Assembly: GCA_005281725.1 (NCBI GenBank)
Contig: SSBO01000009.1
Coordinates: forward strand, 6,820,303 to 6,884,302
Reading direction: 5' to 3'
DNA length: 64,000 nucleotides
From: Wuchereria bancrofti
Lineage: Eukaryota; Nematoda; Chromadorea; Rhabditida; Onchocercidae
Made by a program: the position numbers and the translations under genes. Positions 50,401 to 57,345 of the stretch are shown here, piece by piece. Every line of letters begins with the position of its first letter. The stretch's first letter is position 1. Below the pieces are notes generated by a model, which did not search any database, had not been told where the DNA came from, and worked only from the letters and a program-made list of their open reading frames with translations.

Positions 50401-52733
50401 AGCGGTTGTCAGTTGCTTTCTGTATGTTGAATCGCTAACGACCATACCTTTTGTTTGTTTGAGGTCTGATAAACATCGCAACATATCATCGACAAAAAAA
50501 AGCATGAACAGAAGAATGCTACTTCATAGACATTTCGAAAAACGGTAGCACAGGTAAAAAAAGGATAGGATATAAGAAAATAATTCACGATAACAGGAAA
50601 TTTAACAAAATATATAAATGTTTTAGGAATTTGTCCATTTTATCGATGATAATCCATCAGCAGCATCTGAATCAATCGAGTACGAAATTATTTATGGTAA
50701 TGCTGAGCTATTTCTTCGTCCGCGTTTCGAATTTCCTATTTACAATGTTCCACTTGTAACTGAAAATTGGCCACATGTTGGCGACGAGATCGCCCGCATT
50801 CAGGCTACTTCTCCAAGTCAATCATCTATTCGTTACGAACTTTATTCAAATTCCGGTGAAATGGATGATTATTTCAGCATAAACCCAAAAACCGGTTCGA
50901 TTTACTTTATATATGTATTAATTAAACAAATTGGAAGTAATGATTATGTACGTACTTGAATGAGTAGTTGAAGACATTACTTTCATTCAATTTTACTTGT
51001 TTCGAGGTCTGATTCGATTCTATTATATATTGGACCAAAATTGAACCTTGACTCATTCCTTCTCAATCTGGTCCCTAAAAATTCTTAAATTAAATTAAAA
51101 TCTAGAGTGGTGGCTGATACTGAAACAGCAGTATCAGCCACCTTAAAACTTATAATATTTTCAGGTGTTATAATCTTAAGGAAAGAAATTCTACCTGCGG
51201 AAATAGAAAAAAGTTATTGTACCACTGTTCGTGCAATTGATGATCATGGGCGTTCTGAGACAACTGCAGTGACCATTGGATTCGATAGTTTTGTCAGGGA
51301 ATGTCATAAAATCGACAACTTTAATGGCCTTCAACCTCTCAGATACATTCCTTCTCAATTTCATCCCTCAAAATCTGTCACAGGAATCATTGTAACCAAA
51401 AATGTTACTTCAGAAATACCGAAATCATATGCCACAGCTCCTTCGCTCTCATCAACTTTACCTTCAACAACAGCGAAAACCGATCGAGAAGCAAATGGTA
51501 GATATCGAGTAATGCCTTTAGTAACAAGGAGACACGGATATACGAAATTGATAGCCACACAATCAGTTTCTGATTCTAATCACAAATCCGCCTTAACTTT
51601 AGATTCGAGCAATCATTTGCAACTCTCCTCAACTGCTGCTTCTGTCTCCAGAACAAACTCTGAACCATATTCAAGCGTTTTTCTTGGCACAACAAGTACC
51701 AGTGGTGATACTACAGAAGGAGATCTAAATGACGTTTTTTTCTCTACTGGATTTGGCACTAATGAAATGGTATTTAAAACTGATGGCACCATCAACAGTG
51801 TTAGGTTCTCGACAGGTAAGCCATATGAGACACGTATAATTGGAGGTGCCAAGGAAAGTAGTACATTATTGTCCCGTAAAGAAATTCATGGCGGATCCGA
51901 TAGAACTAATGGGGGAGAAATTACATGGAGTGATAGCTTTAGTTCTGGAAGTAGAGATGCGAAAATTTTTAACGAACGAAAAAATAAACTGTGGTATAGC
52001 ACCAATCAACGAAATGATCCTTTCAGCACGATCACAACCAATCCATATAGTATATTTATTAGAACCAATCAAACCTCTATTTCGCCTGTTTCTTTTACAT
52101 TTATTAATGGTGATACAGCTCATAGCTCCAAAACTACCGAACACTCTGATATCAGATTGCTTACTGAGAAAGATGTATCAAACGAAATTTCTAAAGAAGT
52201 TCCAAAATTTCACCCCTTATTTTCAACTCAAGCCCAACTGAAAAAGGTCTATTTCCCTTGGCTGTACTGGTACATACGACATTAGTATCCAATCATTTAA
52301 TCACCCACTATACGGAATCAACCTACAGTTCCAGCACTACAAACATTATCTACTTTTATTCTCTAATAGTAATCTAGAAGCAAAGTTGCCATCTTCAGAA
52401 AATAATGGGAAAGTAACCATTACAGGTGTAACACGGAATGATGGTTCGCATAACTATCAGTCTCAGATGACGTCGTCCCACAAAAGCACATATGCTCCTA
52501 CTCCGCGAATTACAGAACTCTCAGGACAAGATAATAGCGAAGAAGAAAAGCCGAATATTCAGTCTACAACTAAAATTCCATCTTCTGGTGAAATATTTGT
52601 GGATTACGAGGACAAAGAAAATATCTCAGAGATCGCTTGCCGCCTGAAAGATACACAACCTATTTGGAGTCTTATTTGTGATCTTAGCAAAACATCAAGT
52701 AGGAAGAGTACTGAAAACAAAAAGTTAGAGTAA
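29432..52733 (+). CDS. Giant secreted beta-helix/EGF/cadherin-like protein
   Basis: One long chain of about 50 exons, nearly all with GT-AG limits and compatible phases, runs on the plus strand. Order of modules: signal peptide (exon at 29432-29480, then 29914-29982), parallel beta-helix repeats (31019-37056), EGF modules (37313-40517), beta-rich extracellular segments (40836-50088), a cadherin-like repeat (50627-51290) and a Ser/Thr-rich tail ending at 52733. By my reading the protein has about 3,200 residues. I see no membrane segment near the C-terminus, so it should be secreted into matrix or cuticle-facing space. I do not recognise an orthologue by name. The beta-helix part, with its N-Y/W-W-G motifs, recalls the Bark beetle/Anakonda proteins of septate junctions, but those have other domains (scavenger receptor, lectin, membrane anchor). 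A role in adhesion or matrix is inference. Least certain are the exons between 30100 and 31020, the 33677-33746 exon, and the junction after 45545. Confidence 0.75.
29704..29743. repeat. Perfect 17-bp hairpin in intron 1 of the giant gene
   Basis: GAAATTATCCAATAAAT (29704-29720) is exactly complementary to 29727-29743 with a 6-base loop TGTTAT. It lies between the first two coding exons. Confidence 0.85.
31019..37056 (+). other. Parallel beta-helix module of the giant protein
   Basis: Exons 31019-31151, 31240-31332, 31506-31672, 31958-32044, 32187-32452, 32592-32875, 33024-33232, 33426-33518, 33677-33746, 33992-34099, 34288-34377, 34731-34965, 35211-35292, 35492-35698, 35781-35978, 36064-36306 and 36996-37056. 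The region starts with the cap-like block SPYRISKNITVHAEQVLKIH followed by GTDITF and GIIVHGILQIVGTKYDPVML, and a second such start occurs at 33992-34377 (GIIVFGVLHLLGQQNHPILL). Asn-rich turns (NNNDNGL, NNKDGIS, SNGQHGL) recur at about 20-25 residues, and NYWGT (33426 exon) and DWNYWK (36996 exon) close the two halves. So there are two tandem beta-helix domains of similar plan, suggesting internal duplication. Confidence 0.75.
32453..32560 (+). pseudogene. Decayed partial copy of the next exon, in the intron
   Basis: Intron sequence from about 32456 to 32552 matches exon 32592-32875 (its part at about 32625-32735) almost base for base, for example GATTGCCGTTGGCGGA and GGTGGGATTGCTTTTCGAGA. 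It lacks 14 bases (AGCAATTTGCATTT) and has a few substitutions, and it diverges at its right end. The 14-base loss breaks the frame, so it is not a usable exon. It is a local tandem duplication that starts right at the donor of the preceding exon. Confidence 0.85.
37313..40517 (+). other. EGF-like modules of the giant protein
   Basis: Exons 37313-37402, 37530-37769, 38099-38387, 38962-39120, 40076-40250 and 40410-40517. Repeated C-x-x-x-G-x-C-x...C-x-C patterns form about six to eight EGF-like units, e.g. CSRNGHCVAPNVCKC, CTGHGTCVSLNECDC, CNNHGLCIDNACVC, CSGSGTCVRPQMCEC. They lack the D-x-N/D-E start of calcium-binding EGF. Between units at 38962-40250 lies a segment (VLPTAAGIHQKGENILVYG ... 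GSTASDG ... VRCTIPG) that resembles an IPT/TIG-type Ig-like fold. After it one further EGF-like unit (CNQAECKGYCIGAICVC) ends the block. A basic KR pair precedes the first EGF unit and might be a cleavage site. Confidence 0.8.
40836..50088 (+). other. Beta-rich extracellular segments of the giant protein
   Basis: Exons 40836-40934, 41295-41555, 41766-41903, 42227-42457, 42620-42747, 42895-42994, 43157-43387, 43650-43824, 44012-44100, 44234-44344, 44558-44728, 44874-45096, 45334-45545, 45820-45885, 46208-46330, 46858-46987, 47138-47301, 47410-47619, 47837-48067, 48448-48644, 49029-49269, 49476-49679 and 49864-50088. The first part has carboxypeptidase-regulatory/CNA-B-like phrasing (KGIVNYNEKLIGEVPVEMLV ... 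TADGHFNF). Later exons alternate hydrophobic and polar residues as in Ig-like folds, with N-glycosylation sequons. One Cys-rich patch (YCNCAIKTKKRC, 45334 exon) precedes a helical patch (46208 and 46858 exons). I cannot assign further domain names by eye. Confidence 0.6.
41043..41068 (+). mobile_element. LTR-end fragment in an intron
   Basis: TGTCGCGAATTTCAATATCG matches the first 20 bases of the solo LTR at 26527 exactly, and the next five differ at one base. Similarity then stops. It lies in the intron 40935-41294 of the giant gene. Probably the remnant of a related LTR insertion. Confidence 0.6.
50627..51290 (+). other. Cadherin-like repeat of the giant protein
   Basis: Exon 50627-50894 ends ...YFSINPKTG and exon 51165 onward starts VIILRKEILPAEIEKSYC; together they make a cadherin repeat: YNVPLVTENWPHVGDEIARI, then F-SINPKTG-VI-L, then TTVRAIDDHGRSETTAVTI. 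The DHGR version of D-x-G/A and the partly lost acidic sites suggest weak or no calcium binding. The donor at 50895 (GTTCGA) is weak, but no other choice keeps the fold. Confidence 0.7.
51109..51142. repeat. Perfect 14-bp hairpin just before an acceptor
   Basis: GGTGGCTGATACTG (51109-51122) pairs exactly with 51129-51142 across a 6-base loop AAACAG. It is in the intron 50895-51164, ending 22 bases before the exon. Confidence 0.9.
51291..52733 (+). other. Ser/Thr-rich tail of the giant protein
   Basis: The rest of exon 51165-52269 and the last exon 52370-52733 encode about 460 residues rich in Ser, Thr and Asn with many N-x-S/T sequons, typical of a mucin-like extended segment. The tail ends in ...STENKKLE and a TAA stop. 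No hydrophobic stretch long enough for a membrane span is seen. The donor is TG|GTACAT at 52270 and the acceptor ATAG at 52369, keeping phase 2. Confidence 0.6.
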
Positions 52734-53938: not shown

Positions 53939-54409
53939 TGTAAAAACAAATCTGGTATTTCTTCCTTACTGCTCTGCTTCCTTGCGAAAGTAGTTTTTCT
54001 CTTTTGATAGTTCAGATCGTTGACTTCTTTGCCTTCGATACTGGTAGATTCTCGGATCTGTACTGGTTCCGTTCTGTGTACGTGTACTGTGGGAGTCTTC
54101 GTGAAATACTTTATTATTCAAACCTCAAACTTGGGTAATTAAACCACAGATTAATATTAAAAATTATACAACGTTACAATAACGAATTGATACATAACAC
54201 ACAAACATAACTTAATTATAAAACATTTAAAGATATAAGCAAGCTAGACTCCCAACCGACCCATACCAAGACAAGAAGCTATAATGCATGACTTTGTAAG
54301 GAAGAAAATTGGGAGAGATTTTATGGATGTTAAGGTTACAAAGCGGATTAAAATCACTTAATACAATAATCTTTGTTCATTACGTTATAGCTTCGCCATT
54401 GTGGCGACA
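53939..54409 (-). mobile_element. Inverted solo LTR of the BEL/Pao element
   Basis: A 471-bp copy, minus strand, of the LTR seen at 56866-57340. In sense direction it starts TGTCGCCACAATGG at 54409 and ends TTTTTACA at 53939. Flanks are ATGAA (53934-53938) and ATGAG (54410-54414), a 5-bp duplication with one change. It carries one copy of the 84-base unit, the TATA-like box (54163-54168), SL1 (54124-54145) and AATAAA (54110-54115) in the same order and spacing as the other LTR. It differs from that LTR at scattered positions, mainly in U3. Confidence 0.85.
54124..54145 (-). promoter_or_regulatory. SL1 spliced-leader sequence within the LTR
   Basis: Read on the minus strand, the 22 bases are GGTTTAATTA-CC-CAAGTTTGAG, identical to the nematode SL1 exon. 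The next bases are GTTTGA, so the GAG|GT donor junction is kept. The TATA-like box starts 23 bases upstream. Confidence 0.9.
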
Positions 54410-55854: not shown

Positions 55855-55859
55855 GCGTG
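55855..55859. repeat. Target-site duplication GCGTG (left copy)
   Basis: Identical to 57341-57345. Together they delimit the element. Confidence 0.85.
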
Positions 55860-56279
55860 TGTCGCCACAATGGCGAAGCTATGATGTAATGAACAAAGAT
55901 TACTGTTTTAAGTGATTTTAATCTACTTTGTAACCTTAACATCTGTCGCCACAATGGCGAAGCTATGATGTAATGAACAAAGAGTATTGTTATAAGTGAT
56001 TTTAATCTACTTTGTAACCTTAACATCTGTCGCCACAATGGCGAAGCTATGATGTAATGAACAAAGATTACTGTTTTAAGTGATTTTAATCTACTTTGTA
56101 ACCTTAACATCTGTCGCCACAATGGCGAAGCTATGATGTAATGAACAAAGATTACTGTTTTAAGTGATTTTAATCTACTTTGTAACCTTAACATCTGTCG
56201 CCACAATGGCGAAGCTATGATGTAATGAACAAAGAGTATTGTTTTAAGTGATTTTAATCTACTTTGTAACCTTAACATC
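55860..56279 (+). repeat. Five tandem 84-bp units at the 5' LTR start
   Basis: Units begin at 55860, 55944, 56028, 56112 and 56196, each starting TGTCGCCACAATGGCGAAGC and ending TTAACATC. Units 2 and 5 share GAGTATTGTT where the others have GATTACTGTT. The 3' LTR and the solo LTR have one unit only. Because 84 is a multiple of 3 the antisense strand shows a repetitive open frame that is not a gene. Confidence 0.95.
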
Positions 56280-56422
56280 CAAAAAATCCCTCCCAATTTT
56301 CTTCCTTACAAAGCCATTTATAGTATCTTGTAATGGTATGGCTCGGTTGGGAAGTGTCTAGCTTGCTTACATCTTTAAATGTTTTATAATTAAGTTATAT
56401 TCGTGTGTTATGTATCAACTCN

Positions 56423-56820
56423 AATGGCAAACGCAATACCTTCAAACACTACGAGACCGCAAACAAAGAGAACACAAAGGACCACACGCGCAGACTAGAC
56501 GTATTCCACAAGTGGGAGAGATTGTCTTGGTGCGCACAGGAGCAGTACCCAGAGGATGTTGGCCTCTGGCGCGCATCACCAAGTTAATAGCACAAGCTGG
56601 TAATATTCGAGCGGCCCAACTTAAAATGTCCAATGGACACATTTGGGAAAGACCATTGAACCACCTCTACCCCTTAGAACTGAGCATCAGTCAAAACAAA
56701 CAGTACCAAGTCGTGGACCCGAATATCGAACTAGAAGATGACGAAGATGAAGAAAAGCTATCCATCCGTCCTCGATTCGGCGGAAGAAAAACGATGCCAA
56801 AAGAGCTAAGAACAGGCTGA
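56423..56820 (+). pseudogene. BEL/Pao polyprotein C-terminus (DUF5641-like) remnant
   Basis: About 132 codons are open from the N to a TGA stop. The segment contains the hallmark order of the region after integrase in BEL/Pao polyproteins: W-x-x-x-Y-L-x-x-L-R, then VGEIVLVRTGAVPRGCWPLA, ITKLI, AAQLKMSNGHIWERPLNHLY and PLE. It ends in an acidic run (ELEDDEDEEKL) and basic residues. The upstream coding sequence is absent, so it cannot make a working product as it stands. Confidence 0.85.
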
Positions 56821-57106
56821 AAACAAGTTCAGTCATTTAGCTTGCTACTTTTCTCGAGTCGGGAGTGTCGCCAAAATGGCGAAGCTATGATGTAATGAAC
56901 AAAGATTACTGTTTTAAGTGATTTTAATCTACTTTGTAACCTTAACATCCAAAAAATCCCTCCCAATTTTCTTCCTTACAAAGCCATTTATAGTATCTTG
57001 TAATGGTATGGCTCGGTTGGGAAGTGTCTAGCTTGCTTACATCTTTAAATGTTTTATAATTAAGTTACATTCGTGTGTTATGTATCAACTCGTTATTGTA
57101 ATGTTG

Positions 57107-57112
57107 TATAAT
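57107..57112 (+). promoter_or_regulatory. TATA-like box of the LTR
   Basis: TATAAT starts 23 bases before the first G of SL1. The same spacing is kept in the inverted solo LTR. Confidence 0.55.
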
Positions 57113-57129
57113 TTTTAATGTTAATCTGT

Positions 57130-57151
57130 GGTTTAATTACCCAAGTTTGAG
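57130..57151 (+). promoter_or_regulatory. SL1 spliced-leader sequence at the start of R
   Basis: The 22 bases GGTTTAATTA-CC-CAAGTTTGAG equal nematode SL1 at every position. They are followed by GTTTGAATAATAAAG, giving a GAG|GT junction like that of the SL RNA donor, then the poly(A) signal. No Sm-site or SL RNA body and no 5S rRNA gene is present, so this is not an SL RNA gene. Confidence 0.93.
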
Positions 57152-57159
57152 GTTTGAAT

Positions 57160-57165
57160 AATAAA
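57160..57165 (+). terminator. Poly(A) signal of the LTR
   Basis: AATAAA 9 bases after SL1. Confidence 0.7.
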
Positions 57166-57340
57166 GTATTTCACGAAGACTCCCACAGTACATGTACACA
57201 GAACGGAACCAGTACAGATTCGAGAATCTACCAGTATCGAAGGCAAAGAAGTCAACGATCTGAACTGTCAAGGAAGGAAACCTACTTTGTTTCGCAAGGA
57301 AGCAGAGCAGTAAGAAAGGGTTATTAAATTTGTTTTTACA

Positions 57341-57345
57341 GCGTG
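57341..57345. repeat. Target-site duplication GCGTG (right copy)
   Basis: Identical to 55855-55859. Confidence 0.85.

Follow-up and report, generated by a model that had tools for sequence, protein, structure and literature searches.

Of 316 SL1 spliced leader sequences reported for Brugia malayi by Foster et al. (2020, PMC7181701), 120 lie outside SL RNA genes, and 60 of the 120 have a PAO element within 1 kb; the authors infer that the leaders were added to PAO RNA and integrated along with it. This is the closest described counterpart of the elements analysed here, with the same leader, the same type of element and a related worm. In contrast, the available parts of that report place no SL1 within an LTR and describe no R segment, no exchange of ends and no sameness of SL1 across lineages.

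Two other systems bear a partial likeness. In the nematode LTR element Cer1 of C. elegans, SL1 is acquired by trans-splicing on a short spliced RNA, full-length RNA not being trans-spliced at that site (PMC3315495), and the accessible portions of the paper make no mention of SL1 in LTR DNA. Retrogenes of dinoflagellates that keep relics of the leader (PMC12014239, PMC6050394) likewise result from reverse transcription of a spliced leader into the genome, but the relic, as presented in the available text of these reports, marks the 5' end of an mRNA copy, whereas the filarial SL1 lies within element LTRs. With BEL/Pao elements at large (Belpaoviridae), in so far as the descriptions at hand go, the elements analysed here share domains, LTRs and 5-bp target duplications; they would differ in that R coincides with a host RNA leader in these filarial elements, a comparison in which the LTRs examined were those of the present genome.

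A search of the literature on SL1 or spliced leaders together with retrotransposons, LTRs or Pao found no account of SL1 as R in titles and abstract openings, with older Ascaris papers and most subscription journals outside its scope. An initial sequence-only reading of this DNA could not say whether the arrangement had been described before. Proximity of SL1 to PAO elements has been published for B. malayi (PMC7181701), while the R position of SL1, its constancy from one LTR lineage to another and the swapping of ends at this place are not found in the available parts of that report and, within the literature searched, appear to be new. We propose, at roughly even odds (a probability of about 0.5), that host SL1 has been built into the LTRs of several BEL/Pao lineages, between U3 and a downstream end, where it would act as the R repeat.

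SL1 within the LTRs of BEL/Pao elements

The window, a stretch of 64,000 nucleotides of Wuchereria bancrofti DNA, contains an element whose 3' LTR holds an exact SL1 (Table 1). The sequence-only reading had placed SL1 in this LTR, after a TATA-like box and shortly before AATAAA, and all three statements held: the LTR is real, with a perfect 5-bp target duplication on both sides of the element, and the two motifs lie at the distances given in the table. GT directly follows SL1 in this LTR. A second exact SL1, in a solo LTR of the same family, had escaped that reading. Chance origin of these matches was ruled out, since the shuffled window gave no SL1 match even at up to 3 mismatches and a reversed control sequence has 0 matches in the assembly.

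Table 1. Features of the window element and of a related solo LTR (positions within the 64,000-nt stretch)
Feature	Position	Strand	Remark
Solo LTR, window family, ~90% identical to the 3' LTR	53939..54409	-	flanked by CTCAT/TTCAT
Second exact SL1, inside the solo LTR	54124..54145	-	exact match
Target-site duplication GCGTG, left copy	55855..55859		precedes the 5' LTR
Partial 5' LTR (U3) of the window element, containing an 84-bp tandem repeat	55860..56421	+	cut off by N 56422
Open frame with DUF5641 (end of BEL/Pao polyprotein)	56428..56817	+	E 1.9e-08
3' LTR, 475 bp, TGTCGC...TTTTTACA	56866..57340	+	followed by GCGTG
TATAAT, putative promoter element	57107..57112	+	starts 23 bases before SL1
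SL1 22-mer, exact; predicted start of R	57130..57151	+	22/22 match
AATAAA, likely poly(A) signal	57160..57165	+	8 bases after the end of SL1
Target-site duplication GCGTG, right copy	57341..57345		directly after the 3' LTR

The 5' LTR is joined to the 3' end of the coding region by the single N, an assembly gap inside the element; the gap takes in the bulk of the internal region together with the 5' copy of SL1, which is hidden in the window. DUF5641 is usual near the end of BEL/Pao polyproteins. The open frame that contains it is 95% identical to a W. bancrofti protein and 93% to a B. malayi protein, and the nearest relatives of the element proteins are from Brugia and Wuchereria. The 84-bp unit that opens the 5' LTR is repeated head to tail over 55860-56279, and an extra unit is present in many other LTR copies of the window family (best 40 of 215 candidates scored). 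Elsewhere in the window, a 398-aa open frame at 51089-52285 has two relatives at 46-56% identity (best 7999 candidates scored).

The anatomy of a whole LTR is clearest at locus L047, a complete BEL/Pao element with 398-bp LTRs that are 99.5% identical, have TG...CA ends and are flanked by GTTAC duplications. Its domains DUF1759, DUF1758, Peptidase_A17, Integrase_H2C2 and DUF5641 score above the cut-off, and rve below it. BEL/Pao membership is supported by these domains and the DUF5641 of the window, together with an LTR pair and target duplication in each of the two elements. The L047 LTR reads U3, AATAAA, SL1 and GTTTCACGACA, with SL1 11 bp from the LTR end, so that 33 bases separate AATAAA from the end of the LTR, 22 of them being SL1. 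Poly(A) is usually added some 10-30 bases past AATAAA. With AATAAA directly before SL1, this spacing puts R in or around SL1.

In other LTR types, the length from SL1 to the LTR end is 40, 43-44, 66, about 158 or 189 bases, the last being that of the window, and a primer-site-like sequence stands right after the LTR end in several copies. AATAAA immediately precedes SL1 in 46 of the 48 contexts of the largest class and lies at +9 after SL1 in 18 of 19 window-family contexts. Overall, 69 of 86 contexts have AATAAA within -40..+60 of SL1, and a control stretch of equal length has one in 3 of 86, copies of one family not being independent in these counts; in the long-LTR class none was found within -40..+60. 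The suggestion that SL1 stands where R should begin is thus supported by its position in the LTR.

SL1 sequences across the assembly

Exact SL1 occurs at 243 places in the whole assembly (86.5 Mb, 108 contigs). It is followed by GTAA, as in SL1 RNA genes, at 11 of the 243 and by GTTTGA, the continuation of the window family, at 62; it was absent from viral contigs and from the bacterial and archaeal genomes searched. Surroundings were examined for 90 of the first 100 places listed (a hand count) and for other loci, and the remaining 143 were covered only where they were met in flank and continuation searches. Contexts with at least 100 bases before and at least 90 after SL1, once identical ones had been merged, numbered 88, of which 2 are SL RNA genes. 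The other 86 fall in repeat classes common to LTRs, with full LTR borders set for only a few, and form ten upstream classes. When their U3s are compared, the ten reduce to groups I and II, the window family, a long-LTR family and a set made up of the second members of tandem SL1 pairs. The borders between these are blurred, because some group II U3s end in 21-85 bases of group I. The window family is 72-77% alike to group I U3s, over 56-74 bases only. A further lineage has a slightly decayed SL1 with an extra TTTGAG, which was considered as a product of splicing to an AG inside SL1 and set aside, since slippage would give it equally. The sequence-only reading had named as evidence against itself an SL1 confined to one insertion lineage, with decay in other copies; this is not the case, several LTR groups carrying SL1.

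Same-strand exact SL1 lies within 8.5 kb of 8 of the 15 strong Pao peptidase matches on contigs C1-C11, and random placement gave a mean of 0.28 and at most 3 in 1000 trials; the other 7 have no exact SL1 within 8.5 kb (35 of the 38 matches on these contigs were used, three weaker second pieces being omitted). A retrocopy of a trans-spliced mRNA would have SL1 only at its 5' end, without LTRs. SL1 lies instead in both LTRs of L047 and in LTRs of the window.

The sequence-only reading took the GAG-GT junction to be kept, and raised the possibility that LTR RNA itself acts as a leader donor for trans-splicing. GT directly follows SL1 in the window LTR and in 70 of the 86 distinct contexts, and is absent in 16. 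A donor role, in whose favour the junction speaks, nevertheless appears extremely improbable: the Rfam SL1 RNA family matches at the two SL1 RNA gene loci that were scanned, L043 and L044, with 112 and 123 bits, and matches neither in the window nor at three LTR-type loci (L047, L001 and L054), and the contexts without GT also tell against it.

Constancy of SL1 and exchange of the ends around it

The flanks of the LTR groups are largely unalignable, and the 22 bases of SL1 are the same throughout. With one representative per class, pairwise identity is 0.38 at the base before SL1 and, over the three bases that follow SL1, 0.62, 0.91 and 0.43 in turn, the value of 0.91 arising in part because many representatives have one short end in common. 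Because the contexts had been picked by exact SL1, copies were also searched by their flanks alone. In four flank-chosen sets SL1 was exact in 40 of 42, 14 of 15, 56 of 60 and 26 of 39 copies, or 136 of 156 in total; for the last set 40 of 46 candidates were scored, one on C107 was left out and 19 of the 39 copies had been fetched earlier through SL1.

Variants within SL1 are mostly private to single copies, as expected from decay after insertion. In the window family (59 of 60 rows typed, the missing one being a copy of the commonest row), 5 SL1 variants are private and 0 shared, compared with 24 private and 5 shared in the 43 bases before SL1. In the D0 family, named for its downstream end, the corresponding numbers are 12 and 2 in SL1, 26 and 10 in U3, and 29 and 11 downstream, after copies with the same 3' flank had been merged (39 to 34) and with each deleted base counted once. 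Some variants are shared. Three copies that lie within 9 kb have G2A, two copies of the D0 family have A15G, L118 and L127 have an inserted form in common, and CCCAGG recurs in two neighbouring copies. Any renewal of SL1 is therefore not strict.

The comparison of substitutions in SL1 with those in the rest of the LTR, which the sequence-only reading had proposed, gave a negative answer within the window family: 3 of 638 cells are changed in SL1 against 141 of 12235 elsewhere, and 114 of 424 22-base windows show as few changes, so that SL1 is not unusually conserved there and a conservation argument from this family alone was rejected as too weak.

One or a few old captures of SL1 from trans-spliced RNA, followed by passive inheritance with no present role, would come near the published view. 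That reading agrees with the addition of SL1 to PAO RNA and its subsequent integration that Foster et al. (2020, PMC7181701) infer in the parts of their report available, and with the decay of SL1 in old copies. Capture as such, one of the two routes offered by the sequence-only reading, gains from the limits of the shared block, which coincide with those of the SL1 exon, as would be expected of a leader captured from trans-spliced RNA. Passive inheritance accords poorly with group flanks that have diverged beyond alignment around an unchanged SL1, and with the high proportion of exact copies among those chosen by flank, and we consider it quite unlikely.

The arrangement of U3s and downstream ends around SL1 bears on a role as R. 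Over about 365-400 bases, right to the SL1 border, group I U3s are 76-96% alike; after SL1 they continue into downstream ends of types D0, D2 or D4 or into an 11-base end; with D5, only the last 21-35 bases of the group I U3 are in common. In the clearest pair, the U3s are 93.7% alike over 366 bases while ends of their two types, D0 and D2, show no more similarity than shuffled sequences do (z 0.9). Similar U3s thus do continue into unrelated ends, the pattern taken to mark an exchange of U3s and downstream ends at SL1, although several downstream ends are alike in their last bases, by the LTR end (z 3 to 7; S-D9 z 7.0, D8-D9 z 6.6), so that not every pair of ends is unrelated.

In the long-LTR family (L053, L062, L064, L055 and L131-L134), some copies have and others lack a group I U3 module of ~365 bases immediately upstream of SL1. 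Many group II U3s diverge before SL1 and match again at SL1 (best 40 of 72 candidates scored). One type of group II U3 continues into a 44-base or an 11-base end. The 11-base end was considered as a second trans-splice site and rejected; a deletion between TTTC repeats, suggested by comparison with the 44-base end of that U3 type, is the better reading, and the short group II end is therefore not an exchange of ends. At L135 (C78:10700-13200), two direct repeats 1.57 kb apart have U3 and the CCCAGG form of SL1 in common and differ in their downstream ends.

Mixed LTRs could also be made at the DNA level, if LTRs recombined or underwent gene conversion at the 22 bases that they share, SL1 being then a seed of recombination and not R. 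Three copies with the same 3' flank (L104, L109 and L127), of which two have SL1 exact and the third has the inserted form of L118, would fit such events, and nested and inverted copies are common. However, 22 bases offer little homology, and wherever the end of an LTR type was found SL1 stands at a place that suits R; recombination of this kind is in our judgement very unlikely.

SL1 as a candidate R segment

SL1 lies inside LTRs with target duplications, as an exon-exact block of 22 bases that is the same across lineages and at which alike U3s are joined to unrelated ends. R is the segment of an LTR that the two ends of the RNA must have in common, and it is in first-strand transfer that a downstream end from one RNA becomes linked to the U3 of another. 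SL1 sits and behaves as R would, and we infer from this that it is R. Element RNA would then have SL1 at or very near its start and would receive its poly(A) in or just after SL1, and first-strand cDNA made at the 5' end could in this way be transferred to the 3' end. With one R in common to all such RNAs, the downstream end of one lineage could be joined to the U3 of another. With less confidence, we suggest that the SL1 at the 5' end may be supplied or renewed, at least at times, by ordinary SL1 trans-splicing, and that the cDNA would land on an SL1 encoded in the DNA of the 3' LTR; each new insertion would then set out with a fresh SL1.

In its fullest and more doubtful form, which we put forward tentatively, these elements would have given up a private R: trans-splicing would write SL1 onto the 5' end of the RNA in each cycle, the SL1 of the 3' LTR would receive the cDNA, host SL RNA would keep the leader correct, and any such element could exchange ends with any other. 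If so, trans-splicing would be part of the replication cycle of a retroelement, with a host RNA supplying the sequence on which cDNA lands, and this would explain how 22 bases can stay constant between ends that diverge and are reshuffled. Finding SL1 at the start of a filarial RNA would then not by itself be proof of trans-splicing.

Three observations speak against simple trans-splicing. A G before AG makes a poor splice acceptor. By this consensus the acceptor that trans-splicing needs, the end of SL1 itself, is a poor one; GT frequently follows SL1; and full-length Cer1 RNA is not trans-spliced at its SL1 site, according to the available parts of that report (PMC3315495). The main rival for the source of the 5' SL1 is direct initiation, with transcription beginning on or close to the first G of the SL1 in the LTR itself; the RNA would then carry SL1 without trans-splicing, and selection would keep the 22 bases as an initiator or translation leader. 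We regard this as unlikely, though it is favoured by the TATAAT upstream of SL1 in the window LTR, by the GT that follows SL1 in most contexts and by the inheritance of some SL1 variants. The fixed distance after TATA envisaged by the sequence-only reading did not hold up: the nearest TATAAT, TATAAA or TATGAT starts 17 to 47 bases before SL1 among the U3 classes that have one, and no such string was found in four of the ten classes. Direct initiation alone would, moreover, leave the exchange of ends at SL1 unexplained. Renewal by trans-splicing, for its part, would explain the exon-exact edges and sameness of SL1 as well as tandem copies, which are present in two groups, and needs no fixed promoter distance, which indeed varies.
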